A stretch of 64,000 bases of DNA from Acidobacteria bacterium Mor1. GTDB lineage: Bacteria > Acidobacteriota > Polarisedimenticolia > Polarisedimenticolales > Polarisedimenticolaceae. The stretch lies in contig CP011806.1 of the NCBI GenBank assembly GCA_001664505.1, positions 1,984,486 through 2,048,485 on the forward strand, given 5' to 3'. The first letter of the stretch is position 1. The number at the start of each line of letters is the position of its first letter. Of this stretch, positions 2,788 through 27,065 are shown in pieces. A model generated the notes under the pieces. The model had not been told where the DNA came from. It saw only the letters and a list, made by a program, of their open reading frames with translations, and made no database searches. Both the position numbers and the translations under genes were made by a program.

Positions 2788-2841
2788 ACGGCGGAGCGCC
2801 GTTTGGGCGGCGGCGAAGATCGCCGGACCCGGGAGACGACC

Positions 2842-3183
2842 ATGATCGAACTGATCTGCACCAAGACCTGAAGCACCTGTCGCAAGGCGGTCGCCTTGCT
2901 CGACGAACACGGGATCGAGTACCGCTACCGGGAGTACCGCAAGGAGCCGCTCTCGGCGACGGAGATCCGCTCGGTGCTGAAGAAGCTGGGCCTGAAGGTC
3001 CACGACGTGCTGCGCAAGAACGACAAGGCGTTCAAGGAGCTGAGACTGCGCGGCGATGAACCGGCGTCCAAGCTGATTCCGCTGATGGCCGAGCACCCGA
3101 CTCTGCTGCAGCGCCCGATCGGTGTCGCCGGCAACAAGGCGGTGGTCGGCCGCCCCCCGGACAACCTGCTCGAGTTGAAGTAG
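2842..3183 (+). CDS. ArsC/Spx-family thioredoxin-fold selenoprotein (UGA read as Sec at residue 10)
   Basis: Translation from the ATG at 2842 (GGGAGA at 2831-2836) meets TGA at 2869-2871, then continues open for 103 codons. The result is a complete 113-residue ArsC-family protein. The UGA sits exactly where the first cysteine of the family's CxxC motif belongs (T-U-S-T-C-R-K). Downstream family motifs are intact: YREYRKEPL, LRKNDKAFKEL, RPIGVAGNKAVVGRPP. A hairpin matching bacterial SECIS geometry begins ten bases after the UGA. ArsC-like UxxC selenoproteins are known from marine metagenomes. Expected role: thiol/selenol redox enzyme, either arsenate reductase-like or Spx-like. Alternatives are a nonsense mutation or a sequencing error. 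The gene lies 54 bases after top6B. Confidence 0.82.
2882..2899 (+). promoter_or_regulatory. bacterial SECIS-like stem-loop
   Basis: Arms GCAAGGC (2882-2888) and GCCTTGC (2893-2899) pair perfectly over seven base pairs around a GGTC loop (2889-2892). GTC (2879-2881) can add pairs with GAC (2902-2904) past a two-base bulge. The loop begins 17 bases after the UGA and starts with GG. This fits the usual bacterial SECIS limits: a short stem, a guanine in the first two loop positions, and a loop about 16-37 bases past the UGA. It would recruit SelB with Sec-tRNA. Confidence 0.75.
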
Positions 3184-21125: not shown

Positions 21126-23195
21126 ATGGAAAGCCACCTGGCGAGGCGGAGCCTCGTCTTCTTCGTGTTGGTCTGCGCGCTCGTGACATCGGTATCGGCG
21201 CAGGTCCTGCCCTGGTCGGTCAAGATCGAAAAAGTCCTGGACAATACAGCGGAGGCCGGCGACATCGCGCTGTCGCCGACCGGTGAGATCTGGCTGCTCG
21301 AACGCGCGGGTACCCTGCGCGTATTCCGCGACGGTGCGCAGGTCGCCACGCTGGCCGTGCCGGTCAGCACCACCTGCGAGAGCGGTCTGCTCGACGTCGC
21401 CTTCGATCCGAACCACGCGAGCAACGGTCGCGCGGCGATCTCCTACGTCACCGGCGCCGGACAGGTGCGGGTCGACGAGGTGACTCGCGTGCCCGGCGGC
21501 GTGAACCTCGGCGGGATGCTGATCGACCTCGGCACCACCGCCAGCGGATGCCGGCCCGGCGGCGGTCTCGAGACCAGCGCCGACGGCAAGCTGCTGGTCG
21601 CCGTAGGTGATCTCGGTGTCGGCGCCGACGCGCAGGATGACGCCAAGTTCGCCGGCAAGCTGCTGCGCGCCGAGTTCGACGGCGCGGTGCCGGCAGACAA
21701 CCCGTCGGGCACCCTGGTCTGGGCCAAGGGCTTCCGCCACGGCGCGGACCTGGCGCAGAACCCGAACACCGCCCGGGCCAACGGCACGGTCTACATGACC
21801 GACCGTGGTTCGAGCACCGTGGCGGCCGATGAGGTAAACGCCCCGGGTGAAGGGGGCAACTTCGGTTGGGATTCGGTGAGTGGCAGCGGCGGCGGATTCG
21901 ACGATCCGATCGTCTCCTACAACCCGGTGGTCGGCACCGAGGGTCTCGCCACCATCACCAGCGACAAGTTCGGCGACGCCTCTGAAGGTTCGTTGACCTT
22001 CGCCTGCCTGGATGTCGACGAGATCCGCCAGGCCACGGTCAGCGGAGCCGAGGGAGACGCCCTCAACGACAGCGGCGTGTTCTACAACCCGGCCGGCGAC
22101 CGTGACGGCACGCCGGATGCCGGCTGCCCCGGTTCGATCCACGCGCTGGACGAAGGTGGCGACGGCTGGCTGTACGGCGTCAACGACGGGGCGAACCCGG
22201 GCGTCTGGCGCATGTACAAGGACACCATGGGTCCCCGCGAAGTGTCCGCCCCCGGTTCTCCCTTCCGCTTCACCGTCGGCAAGTCCGGCGGCGATCTGGA
22301 GTTCGGCTGGGAAGACCTGGGCACGCTGGATGCAGGCTTCCCGGTCCGTAACGGCGGCCAGCACTCCCAGACCTACACCGTCTGGGAAGGCACGCTGCCC
22401 ATCGCCAGCTACGACCACACCGCCCTGCTGCGCACCGACGGCAACAGCGCCGGCCTGCGCCGGCTGACCGCGACCACCACCCCCGGCAGCGGCGACCGCT
22501 ACTACCTGGTCACCGCCCAGGGTGAGAACGTCGAGGGCTCCGCCGGACGCGCGACCGACGGCACCGAGCGCAACCCGATGACCGACTACTGCCAGAACCT
22601 CGGCGCCGGTCAGTTCATCGGCGACTGCGCCGACGAGTTCCGCCACGTGGACACGGGTGAGATCCTCAAGCTCACCGACTACAATCCGCGCTCGCCGACC
22701 TACCTGCAAGAGGTCGGCCTCTCGGACTACCGCGGCCGCGTGATCCACATCGACCTCAGCGCCGACGACTGCTTCTGGTGCAACGTCCAGGCGGACTTCT
22801 TCCACGACGTGGATGTCGAGTTCCGCGATCGCGACTTCGTACTGCTGGTGATCTTCACCCAGAACATCGGCGGCTTCGCCCATGCCGACATCAACGACTG
22901 CATCGCCGATGCCGCGTCCTGGGCCGATGCTCACAACGAAGACTCGCCGATCCTCTGCGACATTCCGCGGGTGCCCAACCCGCAGAACAACGACGAGCGC
23001 CGGGGCGCGGTGACCTACAACTACTGGCACGGTTCCAGCGGGACGCCTCCCGGCGAAGACTGCGGCGGTACGCCCCAGAACATCTTCGTCGACCAGGCGG
23101 GGGTCGTTTACGACTTCCAGTGCGGCGCGTTCCTCAGCTCCACTGCGGTGGACAACATCGTGGGTCCCGAGACCAACCCGGAGACCTGCGAGTGA
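21126..23195 (+). CDS. secreted sugar-dehydrogenase-like propeller fused to a thioredoxin-like domain
   Basis: The protein has 689 residues, with a Sec signal (about 1-24). Residues of about 30-370 resemble the glucose/sorbosone dehydrogenase propeller: GDIALSPTGEIWLLERAGTL, CESGLLDVAFDPN, LLVAVGDLG, WAKGFRHG, NFGWDSVSG. A beta-sandwich module (about 375-495) with RYYLVTAQGENVEGS is shared with two other proteins here. The rest (about 510-689) is thioredoxin-like, with CFWC (C549, C552) and VIHIDLSADDCFWC, FVLLVIFT spacing. It probably acts as an exported redox protein; substrate unknown. PQQ-binding residues were not checked. Its TGA overlaps the GTG of the next gene by four bases. Confidence 0.8.
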   Translation: MESHLARRSLVFFVLVCALVTSVSAQVLPWSVKIEKVLDNTAEAGDIALSPTGEIWLLERAGTLRVFRDGAQVATLAVPVSTTCESGLLDVAFDPNHASNGRAAISYVTGAGQVRVDEVTRVPGGVNLGGMLIDLGTTASGCRPGGGLETSADGKLLVAVGDLGVGADAQDDAKFAGKLLRAEFDGAVPADNPSGTLVWAKGFRHGADLAQNPNTARANGTVYMTDRGSSTVAADEVNAPGEGGNFGWDSVSGSGGGFDDPIVSYNPVVGTEGLATITSDKFGDASEGSLTFACLDVDEIRQATVSGAEGDALNDSGVFYNPAGDRDGTPDAGCPGSIHALDEGGDGWLYGVNDGANPGVWRMYKDTMGPREVSAPGSPFRFTVGKSGGDLEFGWEDLGTLDAGFPVRNGGQHSQTYTVWEGTLPIASYDHTALLRTDGNSAGLRRLTATTTPGSGDRYYLVTAQGENVEGSAGRATDGTERNPMTDYCQNLGAGQFIGDCADEFRHVDTGEILKLTDYNPRSPTYLQEVGLSDYRGRVIHIDLSADDCFWCNVQADFFHDVDVEFRDRDFVLLVIFTQNIGGFAHADINDCIADAASWADAHNEDSPILCDIPRVPNPQNNDERRGAVTYNYWHGSSGTPPGEDCGGTPQNIFVDQAGVVYDFQCGAFLSSTAVDNIVGPETNPETCE
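22236..22610 (+). other. recurring secreted module (copy 1)
   Basis: This part of the propeller-thioredoxin protein has an LxFxW strand, TYTVWEGTL, a GDRYYLVxAQGxNVEGSxG run and two later cysteines. Related stretches close two other secreted proteins in this window (48660-48995 and 57400-57670). Confidence 0.5.
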
Positions 23196-25318
23196 CCTGT
23201 AAGCAGACCCTGCGGCGGCGGCCTTCGGCCGTCGCCGTTTTTCTGTTCCTGGCGGCCTGTTTGACGCTTCCCGGCTACGCCGGCGAAGAGGCCGACCCGG
23301 AAGAGCCGACCTCCTCGGCCCCCGAGGACGCGGTCATCGTCGGCGACGCCTCGCCCACGGTGACCAGCGCCCTCCAGGGCAAGGAAGGCGTTCGCATTCA
23401 GACCCTTTGCACCCACTGCAACTCGGCCAACATCCAGGTGGGTGGACTCTCCCAGGACCTGGTTCCCATGTCCCAGGACGGTTTCCCGGTGATCGGAGGC
23501 CTGGCCACGTCGCTGGTGCTGACGGTGCTGCCCGCCGACACCATCGCCGAGGCCGAAGTGCTCAAGGGCCCGGGCGAGGCCGCGGAGCCCTCTCAGGCCG
23601 CCGGGGGCGTGATCGCCCTGACCGGCGCCGACCCGGGCGATCTTCCCTGGCTCGACGTCAACAGCGGCTCCGGTTCCTTCGACCGCCAGTTCGCCAACCT
23701 GCGGTTGGCCGGCGAGCTGACCGAACAGGTCACCGCCTCAGTGACCTTCGGCATGGACAAGGCGGACCCGATCGACGACGACAACAACGGCTTCAACGAC
23801 GTGGGCCGGGTCGACCGGGAGTACTACGACGCGCGTACCACCATCGCGCTGGGCCTGAACCACACGCTGAACCTGGCGACCGACTACATCGGTGAAGACA
23901 ACTTCAATGCCCGGGGTGCCTTCGACATCTTCGGCTTCCTGCGAGATGGCGAGGACCAGTGGACTCGCGAGGACACGCTGCTCGAGCGGCGCTCCCACCG
24001 GGCCGGATGGACCTGGAACCAGCGCAACGGCGGGACCCTCGCCGTGCGCGGCCTGACCGCCGACCGGGACCAGCGGGTGCTTTCCCAGCTCACCGCGATC
24101 CCCGACCTGTTCGGACCGGGCAGCGACCAGCTGTTCGACCGCTTCCAGATCGAGGAAGAGAACCACTGGGTCGGCGCCAGCTACGACCGCCCGATCGGCT
24201 TCGCCTGGCGCATCAGCACCGGGATCGAATCGAGCTATCAGCGGGTCGCGGCCAACTCGGTCAACATCTTCACGCTGATCGGCGGGGGCACCCCCGATGA
24301 AGCGGAGGAGGCCGAGGACAAGGTCGAGCTGCAGTCGGCCTATTTCGACGCCGGCTGGGCTCCGAGTACCAAGTTCGACATGCTGTTCGGCGTACGCTAC
24401 GACGATGTCGAACTGAGCCACGACGAGATCAACCTGGGCCGGGTGATTCAGAACAGCCAGGAAGACTCCCAGGTCTCGCCGCGAGTCACCGTGCGCTGGT
24501 TCCCCTCCACCGGCTGGACCCTGCGTTTCCTGGCGGGCCGCACCTTCCGGCCGCCCAAGCCGATCCTCGCCGAGGTCTGTTGCGGCCAGTCCTACCAGGA
24601 CAGCAGTTCCGCCCGGCCCGAGACCGCCACGACGGTGGGGCTGGAGACGATCTTCCAGCCGGATCCGGAATGGCGGGTCAGCGCCTACGTGGCGCGCACC
24701 GAGTTCGACGATCACCTGCTGCGCCTGGTGGCCTGGAGCCAGTTGTTCATCCAGACCTACGCCCTGGCCAACGTCAGCGAGGCTCAGGCGGACACTGCCG
24801 AGATCGCCATGCGGTACACCCCGGGCGGGGCCGGCGGCCGGCTGCAGGTCGACACCAGCATCGGCTGGCTCGACTTCAGCAACACCGGAGCCCGGGACGT
24901 GCCCGTCGAGGTCGCGCCTCCGTCGTTCGCCACGACCCAGACGGTCCTGGTGCCGATGGACGAGATCCCGTACCGCCCGGAGCGGACCGGCTCGATCGCC
25001 GCGACCTACCGCTTCGCCGACAAGTACCTGGTCTCCATCGGCGGCAACTACACCGGCGAGATGTGGATTCAGCAGTTCAACGCCGACGGCATCAGTCCCA
25101 ACGGGCTGGAGCCCGAGTTCCGCCGCACCGACGACTTCTGGATCGGCACCCTCTCGGCGATCATCCCGCTCAACGAGACCGTCGAGTTCCAGATCAACCT
25201 GGACAACTTCACCGACGAGCTCCAGGACGACCTGGGCGATCCGACCACCGACTACAACTGGGGCCCGCTGGCGGGCCGCACCTGGTCGGCAGGGCTACGC
25301 ATCCACCTGAACCGCTAG
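23192..25318 (+). CDS. TonB-dependent receptor with CTHCN plug motif
   Basis: The protein has 708 residues and a GTG start overlapping the previous stop (GTGA). A signal peptide ends near PGYAGEE. The plug domain (about 55-145) has IRIQTLCTHCNSANIQVGGLS-type spacing with C73 and C76, then IAEAEVLKGPG and GGVIAL. The barrel fills the rest, with aromatic-rich strands to a near-terminal LAGRTWSAGLRIHL. A CxxCN plug motif occurs in a subset of TonB receptors of unknown ligand. Tight coupling to the propeller-thioredoxin gene suggests one transport or processing unit. It could bind a thiol ligand or metal; that is inference. A strong terminator follows. Confidence 0.88.
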   Translation: MTCKQTLRRRPSAVAVFLFLAACLTLPGYAGEEADPEEPTSSAPEDAVIVGDASPTVTSALQGKEGVRIQTLCTHCNSANIQVGGLSQDLVPMSQDGFPVIGGLATSLVLTVLPADTIAEAEVLKGPGEAAEPSQAAGGVIALTGADPGDLPWLDVNSGSGSFDRQFANLRLAGELTEQVTASVTFGMDKADPIDDDNNGFNDVGRVDREYYDARTTIALGLNHTLNLATDYIGEDNFNARGAFDIFGFLRDGEDQWTREDTLLERRSHRAGWTWNQRNGGTLAVRGLTADRDQRVLSQLTAIPDLFGPGSDQLFDRFQIEEENHWVGASYDRPIGFAWRISTGIESSYQRVAANSVNIFTLIGGGTPDEAEEAEDKVELQSAYFDAGWAPSTKFDMLFGVRYDDVELSHDEINLGRVIQNSQEDSQVSPRVTVRWFPSTGWTLRFLAGRTFRPPKPILAEVCCGQSYQDSSSARPETATTVGLETIFQPDPEWRVSAYVARTEFDDHLLRLVAWSQLFIQTYALANVSEAQADTAEIAMRYTPGGAGGRLQVDTSIGWLDFSNTGARDVPVEVAPPSFATTQTVLVPMDEIPYRPERTGSIAATYRFADKYLVSIGGNYTGEMWIQQFNADGISPNGLEPEFRRTDDFWIGTLSAIIPLNETVEFQINLDNFTDELQDDLGDPTTDYNWGPLAGRTWSAGLRIHLNR

Positions 25319-25635: not shown

Positions 25636-26145
25636 ATGAAGGCACGAAGCCTGTCCCGGCCCATCATGATCGCGGGCCTCGTCTGCGCGATCTCGGCGAC
25701 CACGATGGTCGCCGCCAATCCGAAGGTCGTGCTCGACGTCGGCGTCGAACGCGAAGAGGTGCTGGTCGATGACAGCGGCACCTCGGTCGTCGAACGGCGG
25801 CCGGTGACCCGGGCCAATCCCGGCGACCTTCTCGTCTACACCGTGACCGCCTCCAACTTCGGCGTCTCTCCCGCGGCCAACGCCACGGTCGAGGACCCGA
25901 TCCCGAACGGCACGGTGCTCGTCCTCGACGGCTTCGGCCAGGGACCGCTTCCGACCGAGGCCAGCCTCGACGGCGGCGAAACCTGGCAGACCTTCCCGGC
26001 GGAGGTCGAGGTCGTGCGCAACGACGGCGTGCGGCAGGTCCTGCCGGCCCCCGCTCCTTCCTACACGCATCTGCGCTGGGTGCTCGATGGCCAGTTGGCT
26101 CCCGGTGATTCCAAAGACGTTTCGTTCAAGGTCCGCGTCAACTGA
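25636..26145 (+). CDS. small exported DUF11-like protein
   Basis: The protein has 169 residues, with a Sec signal peptide (about 1-27). The body is one DUF11-type Ig-like domain: PGDLLVYTVTASNFGVSPAANATVEDPIPNGT, then HLRWVLDGQLAPGDSKDVSFKVRV. DUF11 domains are beta-sandwich repeats of bacterial surface proteins. With 38 bases to the next gene, it is probably co-expressed with the second DUF11 protein. Confidence 0.82.
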   Translation: MKARSLSRPIMIAGLVCAISATTMVAANPKVVLDVGVEREEVLVDDSGTSVVERRPVTRANPGDLLVYTVTASNFGVSPAANATVEDPIPNGTVLVLDGFGQGPLPTEASLDGGETWQTFPAEVEVVRNDGVRQVLPAPAPSYTHLRWVLDGQLAPGDSKDVSFKVRVN

Positions 26146-26183
26146 CGCACTTTCCCTTTCAAGGTCAATCGAGGGGTTTGCTG

Positions 26184-27065
26184 ATGAAGCAGACATTGCG
26201 CACCAGGTTCGGGCTGGGCGCGGCTATCGCCGCTCTGGTCCTCCTCGCGACCCCGGCGCTCGCGTTGGGTACTCCCGAGGGCACTCCTATCTCCAACACC
26301 GCGACGGTGAACTACGAGGACGACAACGGCAACCCGCTGTCGGCGACCTCGAACACCGTCACGACGATCGTGGCCCAGGTGGCTGCTGTCGATGTCGATC
26401 CGGATAACGCGTCCAGCGCCGATCCGGGCGATACCGTCACCTACCTGCACACCGTGACCAACAACGGTAACGGCGACGACACCATCGACCTGGCGGCCGT
26501 CAGCAGCCAGGGCTGGACCGTCACCATCTACCTCGACGACGGCGACGGCGTGTTCGAGGGCGGCGCCGACGATACGGTCGCCTCCGACACCGGCCTGCTG
26601 AGCGCCGACGGTAGCGTCGACATCTGGATCGAGGTCGTCGTGCCGGCAGGTACGGCCGACGGCACCGTCGACACCACCACCGTGACCGGTACGTCGCAGT
26701 TCGACAGCGGCGTCTCCGAGTCGGCCACCGACACCACCACCGTCGACTCCCCCGACATCAGCGTGGTCAAGTCGGTGTCGCCCACCGGCGATCAACCTCC
26801 GGGCACCACGCTGACCTACACCATGGTCGTGACCAACAACGGTAACGCCGCGGCCAGCGCCGTGGTGCTGACCGACGCGGTTCCGGCCAACACCACCTAC
26901 GTGGCCGGTTCGATCACCCAGGACGCCGGTTCGCTGACCGACGGCGGCGGCGACGACAACGGTGACTTCGGTGCGACCACGGCGGGTACGGTCACGGTCA
27001 CCATCGGAACCCTCGCGGCTTCCGGCGGCTCGACCACGATCACCTTCCAGGTGACGATCGACTAA
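26184..27065 (+). CDS. exported DUF11 repeat protein
   Basis: This 293-residue protein has a Sec signal peptide (about 1-27) and two DUF11-like domains. The second (about 195-293) is canonical: PPGTTLTYTMVVTNNGNAAASAVVLTDAVPANTTYVAGS, ending STTITFQVTI. It is acidic and Thr/Asp-rich with no anchor. GAGGGG at 26171-26176 fits the ATG at 26184 better than the TTG at 26178. A surface or pilus-associated role is inferred from neighbours. Confidence 0.82.
   Translation: MKQTLRTRFGLGAAIAALVLLATPALALGTPEGTPISNTATVNYEDDNGNPLSATSNTVTTIVAQVAAVDVDPDNASSADPGDTVTYLHTVTNNGNGDDTIDLAAVSSQGWTVTIYLDDGDGVFEGGADDTVASDTGLLSADGSVDIWIEVVVPAGTADGTVDTTTVTGTSQFDSGVSESATDTTTVDSPDISVVKSVSPTGDQPPGTTLTYTMVVTNNGNAAASAVVLTDAVPANTTYVAGSITQDAGSLTDGGGDDNGDFGATTAGTVTVTIGTLAASGGSTTITFQVTID

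Follow-up and report, generated by a model that had tools for sequence, protein, structure and literature searches.

The locus described here raises a question of decoding, namely whether a TGA triplet near the start of an open reading frame ends translation or is read as selenocysteine (Sec) within an ArsC-like protein. The frame occupies positions 2842-3183 on the forward strand of the window, the whole 64,000-nucleotide stretch of Acidobacteria bacterium Mor1 DNA that was analysed, and an earlier note made from the DNA letters alone had proposed that it encodes Sec in an ArsC/Spx-like protein. ArsC-like selenoproteins of the UxxC and UxxS types are already published and have been predicted since the mid-2000s. 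A UxxS protein was listed in 2005 as 'Arsenate reductase' (TIGR00014/COG1393) in a Sargasso Sea survey (PMC1088965), and ArsC-like selenoproteins were listed again in 2006 (PMC1794560). Both UxxS and UxxC forms were listed in 2008 in the GOS survey, the UxxC form as 'Arsenate reductase 2' (cd03032) (PMC2398784). An 'Arsenate reductase-like protein' (COG1393, UxxC) stands among the predicted families in a table of 2022 (PMC9312934), and in 2026 an entry of the same name, COG number and motif was assigned to the model NF041106 (PMC13188914). The gene in the window is a well-supported further example of these proteins. Modestly new, it seems, is the clade to which it belongs, with the motif CxxxUxxC and a window member that falls outside existing NCBIfam cut-offs.

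Here, we describe a computational analysis of this gene, its orthologues and its genome. We present evidence that it very probably encodes a Sec-containing protein of the ArsC fold.

Results and Discussion

An in-frame UGA near the start of an ArsC-like gene

With TGA translated as Sec, the gene runs from ATG 2842 to the stop codon TAG at 3181-3183 and specifies 113 residues (MIELICTKTUSTCRKAVALL...LLELK) containing the motif C6-x3-U10-x2-C13. The TGA (2869-2871, +) is codon 10, and codon 13 (TGT, 2878-2880, +) encodes Cys13, which would act as the resolving residue of the UxxC pair. Read directly from the sequence, the stretch at 2830-2841 (+), with a GGGAG purine run in it, is a putative ribosome binding site. 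The translation passes the Pfam ArsC model (PF03960) at E=2.7e-16, with 60.1 bits against a gathering cut-off of 24, in keeping with the earlier description of the frame beyond the UGA as an ArsC-family protein.

UGA terminates the gene directly upstream, which encodes topoisomerase VI subunit B (1039-2787, +), as well as 14 of the 30 long ORFs of the window. Topoisomerase VI subunit B is present only in some bacteria. Because UGA is an ordinary stop in this genome, its recoding at codon 10 would be context-dependent, the code itself being unchanged.

The earlier note had also anticipated that the UGA splits the gene and that automatic tools would call only its 3' part, and mechanical ORF calling indeed yields nothing but a 95-amino-acid ORF that starts at TTG 2896. 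Taken at face value, this result of ORF calling would make the short 3' ORF the real gene and the TGA a true stop. Such a product would begin past the active-site residues and have no first strand, and the nine codons upstream of the TGA are conserved, along with the TGA itself, in the orthologues; we give this reading next to no credence.

A hairpin with the properties of a bacterial SECIS element

A candidate bacterial SECIS element lies at 2882-2899 (+), just downstream of the UGA. Its arms, GCAAGGC (2882-2888) and GCCUUGC (2893-2899), form seven perfect pairs, and its GGUC loop (2889-2892) begins 17 nt after the UGA; the perfect 7-bp stem, GG-led loop and suitable spacing are as the earlier note had given them. 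Published rules for bacterial SECIS elements specify a loop of 3-9 nt, a stem of 4-16 bp, a G in the first two loop positions, a UGA-to-loop distance of 16-37 nt and an MFE of <= -7.5 (PMC13188914). The window hairpin satisfies each of these, with a loop of 4, a stem of 7, GG, a distance of 17 nt and an isolated stem-loop energy of -12.5 kcal/mol.

When the peptide was recoded synonymously 20,000 times, 163 versions had a GG-led loop within range on a stem of at least 7 bp; among 1896 ordinary codon positions of neighbouring genes, 4 had such a stem and loop. These chance tests on the window hairpin alone are suggestive. Folding of the whole region is no evidence for the hairpin: the MFE fold of 62 nt is without it (z -0.62), and next to a competing structure its pair probability is about 0.39. 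Evidence comes instead from conservation and from shorter folds, since the hairpin is dominant, with a probability of about 1.0, when folding is limited to the first 33-50 nt counted from the UGA. Over the gene, Rfam returned a single chance match at E=10 and nothing meaningful.

The UGA and the hairpin are conserved among orthologues

A search of 120 relatives returned four orthologues, 59-76% identical and with exactly one TGA each. When 396 genomes of the phylum were searched with a profile, the total rose to 12 full-length genes, including that of the window, at 163 bits or more, and one fragment, all with the TGA. The orthologue set therefore comprises 13 genes, the window gene and 12 others from the same phylum, one of them the fragment, and the UGA is kept in 13/13. 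More distant relatives (L025-L027) carry Cys in the Sec-aligned column, which agrees with the earlier placement of the UGA at the first Cys of a CxxC motif and with the Cys that had been expected there in homologues.

These comparisons bear on the reading that the TGA is a sequencing error for TGC or TGT, or that the gene is a broken pseudogene. The same TGA and the same hairpin downstream of it recur across the 13 orthologues, and the protein is strongly conserved past the TGA. With TGA present in the orthologues of 12 other genomes, a read error is implausible, and the probability that we attach to either form of this reading is minute.

Pairing in the hairpin was preserved as well, standard pairs occupying 89 of the 91 pair cells in the 13 genes. 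Synonymous codon shuffles within each gene reached at most 75/91 in 3000 trials, column shuffles matched 89/91 in 9 of 500 cases, and sliding the pairing partners by 1-3 columns left 28-57%. An A-A mismatch is present in the stem of L082, and the outermost stem pair is lost in L094. In L023 the second pair is U-A instead of C-G, each base having been altered by its own synonymous change (Arg CGC->CGT and Leu TTG->TTA). Covariation within the clade is confined to this one pair because the hairpin sequence hardly varies. Among the five closest genes, synonymous differences were found in 8 of 70 comparisons at hairpin codons versus 260 of 570 past codon 21, and all eight belong to the compensated pair of L023. 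Codon 19 is a Leu codon of the form TTG or TTA in all 13 genes. The loops (GGUC, CGUG, GCUC and AGUU) have in every sequence a G among the first two bases and U as the third. The earlier note had named conservation and covariation of the hairpin as a check on its proposal, and with one double compensatory change the outcome favours it; we consider this comparative evidence, drawn from aligned sequences, decisive for the hairpin. The locus is a further SECIS/ORF pair that is well conserved and clearly under synonymous constraint.

The genome encodes a selenocysteine system

The genome that contains the window is a single contig of 5.985 Mb, 99.98% complete, and carries the full Sec system predicted for it: SelA (442.6 bits), SelB (330 bits, above cut-off, at a full length of 621 aa), SelD, and a tRNA-Sec (72.7 bits) with anticodon TCA (UCA). 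SelB is above cut-off in every genome carrying the TGA gene, and is also found in most of the compared genomes that are without the gene or have a Cys version, such that its presence is necessary but non-discriminating. The in-frame UGA, the SECIS element and the machinery together point strongly to Sec insertion, in which the ribosome, with SelB and tRNA-Sec, would read codon 10 as Sec under the guidance of the hairpin just downstream. Along with the orthologues, they bear out the proposal of Sec in an ArsC/Spx-like protein.

The SelD gene of this genome (L011 1405-2580) has an in-frame TGA of its own, and SelD is thus probably itself a selenoprotein, as is known for other bacteria.

Fold and active-site residues place the protein with ArsC

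When Sec was read as Cys, the top NCBIfam model was TIGR00014 (arsenate reductase), at 90.1 bits and below its cut-off of 106.05. The Spx/MgsR models were likewise below cut-off (TIGR01617, 62.8 vs 75.05 bits; NF002459, 57.6 vs 123 bits), and the selenoprotein model NF041106 was not reached, at 24 bits against a cut-off of 85. An AlphaFold2 model, with Sec modelled as Cys, has a mean pLDDT of 94.7. Its best PDB matches are the arsenate reductases 3rdw and 3f0i (TM 0.92-0.93), and the TM is 0.92 against E. coli ArsC (1i9d) but about 0.8 against Spx.

Six residues, C6, U10, C13, Arg58, Arg91 and Arg104, are invariant in the 12 aligned orthologues. From the sequence and fold matches, we take U10 to correspond to the catalytic C12 of E. 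coli ArsC, and Arg58, Arg91 and Arg104 to its oxyanion-binding residues R60, R94 and R107. Cys6 stands at the place of the active-site His8 of E. coli ArsC and sets the clade apart. The protein thus resembles the glutaredoxin-dependent E. coli enzyme in fold, catalytic position and the three arginines; it differs in having Sec for Cys12, an added Cys13 and Cys for His8, and in scoring under the TIGR00014 cut-off. The fold and catalytic residues of an ArsC-type reductase are supported.

Spx of Bacillus subtilis (1z3e, 3gfk) shares the ArsC fold and has a CxxC-type motif at the same position, and it is among the next-best matches by both sequence and structure. The selenoprotein could on these grounds be a redox-sensing regulator that binds RNA polymerase through a U10-C13 switch, rather than a reductase. 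Arsenate reductases are closer to it in structure and in NCBIfam score, however, and the three ArsC arginines are present and invariant. At 113 residues it also is without about 20 C-terminal residues of Spx, whose chains have 131-132, and a regulatory role of this kind seems unlikely. The label 'ArsC/Spx-like' given by the earlier note is correct, with the structure and catalytic arginines favouring ArsC over Spx.

Proposed reaction and substrate

In an ArsC-type reductase of this design, Sec10 would be the nucleophile, in place of Cys12 of the E. coli enzyme, and would attack arsenate, a related oxyanion or a disulfide; Arg58, Arg91 and Arg104 would keep the anion in place. Cys13, and possibly Cys6, may then resolve the intermediate as a selenenylsulfide, which thioredoxin, glutaredoxin or a small thiol would reduce.

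The genes downstream encode a beta-lactamase-family protein, TerC and a double ABC ATPase, and none of the neighbours examined was recognised as an arsenic gene. By visual inspection, the genes flanking four orthologues are unlike those in the window and unlike one another. With neighbours that vary and no arsenic genes among those examined, arsenate as the substrate is unproven, and we regard the chances that it is the physiological one as evenly balanced. The protein might instead be a general glutaredoxin-like oxidoreductase acting through a selenenylsulfide/disulfide, for which arsenate is not the physiological substrate. The UxxC redox motif, a glutaredoxin Pfam match (E=2.1e-7) and the neighbourhood just described are consistent with this function; the retention of the anion-binding arginines of ArsC argues against it, and we hold it as a tentative alternative, with a probability of roughly one in three.

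Relation to published selenoproteins and evolution within the phylum

As an ArsC-family protein with Sec as the first residue of UxxC, the window protein is like the published UxxC selenoproteins (PMC2398784, PMC9312934, PMC13188914), whose representatives include MAM02162.1 and MDE3003982.1; it appears to be set apart from them by its motif, with the extra invariant Cys6, and by its score with NF041106. It shares the ArsC family and a Sec redox residue with the UxxS 'Arsenate reductase' (PMC1088965) but has UxxC, not UxxS. Because ORF calling truncates the gene and NF041106 misses its product, genomes with members of the clade probably have them wrongly annotated.

In a tree built from 50 ArsC homologues of the phylum, the 12 full-length CxxxUxxC members, all with Sec, formed one group (100/99), and about 400 genomes from the phylum yielded no Cys version of this clade. 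The clade may, somewhat speculatively, constitute a distinct Sec-only subfamily of the ArsC fold with a three-residue site, Cys6/Sec10/Cys13, whose chemistry is not yet described. Across the tree, well-supported branches force at least six Sec/Cys changes and parsimony gives nine, the Sec label of one homologue (L044) being uncertain; the tree does not give the direction, gain or loss. In the ArsC family, then, Sec and Cys have been swapped several times inside one phylum, and the general picture of bacterial selenoproteins is unchanged.

L044, at about 1501, is an ArsC homologue on a long branch. It has a putative UNSS (UxxS) motif instead of CxxS and in this resembles the UxxS arsenate reductase already published as a selenoprotein.

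A second ArsC-like Sec clade, from the same class as the genome of the window, comprises L042, L047, L048 and L049, with the motif TUTSCRKA or TUTTCRKA. In its members a hairpin of 7-8 bp again carries a GGUC loop, 21 nt past the UGA, and in L048 an A-U pair of the other three is replaced by G-C, a compensatory change.

Other UGA and hairpin combinations in the window

A scan of the window for ORFs with a UGA plus hairpin gave 17 further matches, such as are expected by chance because the window is 67% GC, and four of these were looked at. At 24298, 44253 and 54655 a longer ORF, in a different frame or strand, overlaps the match, and the fourth, at 25770 in a gap, does not share the frame of a 169-aa ORF (25636-26145); all four were rejected. 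In this part of the window a TonB-dependent receptor-like ORF (22778-25318, +) is followed by a DUF11-domain ORF (26178-27065, +), which perhaps encodes a surface protein.
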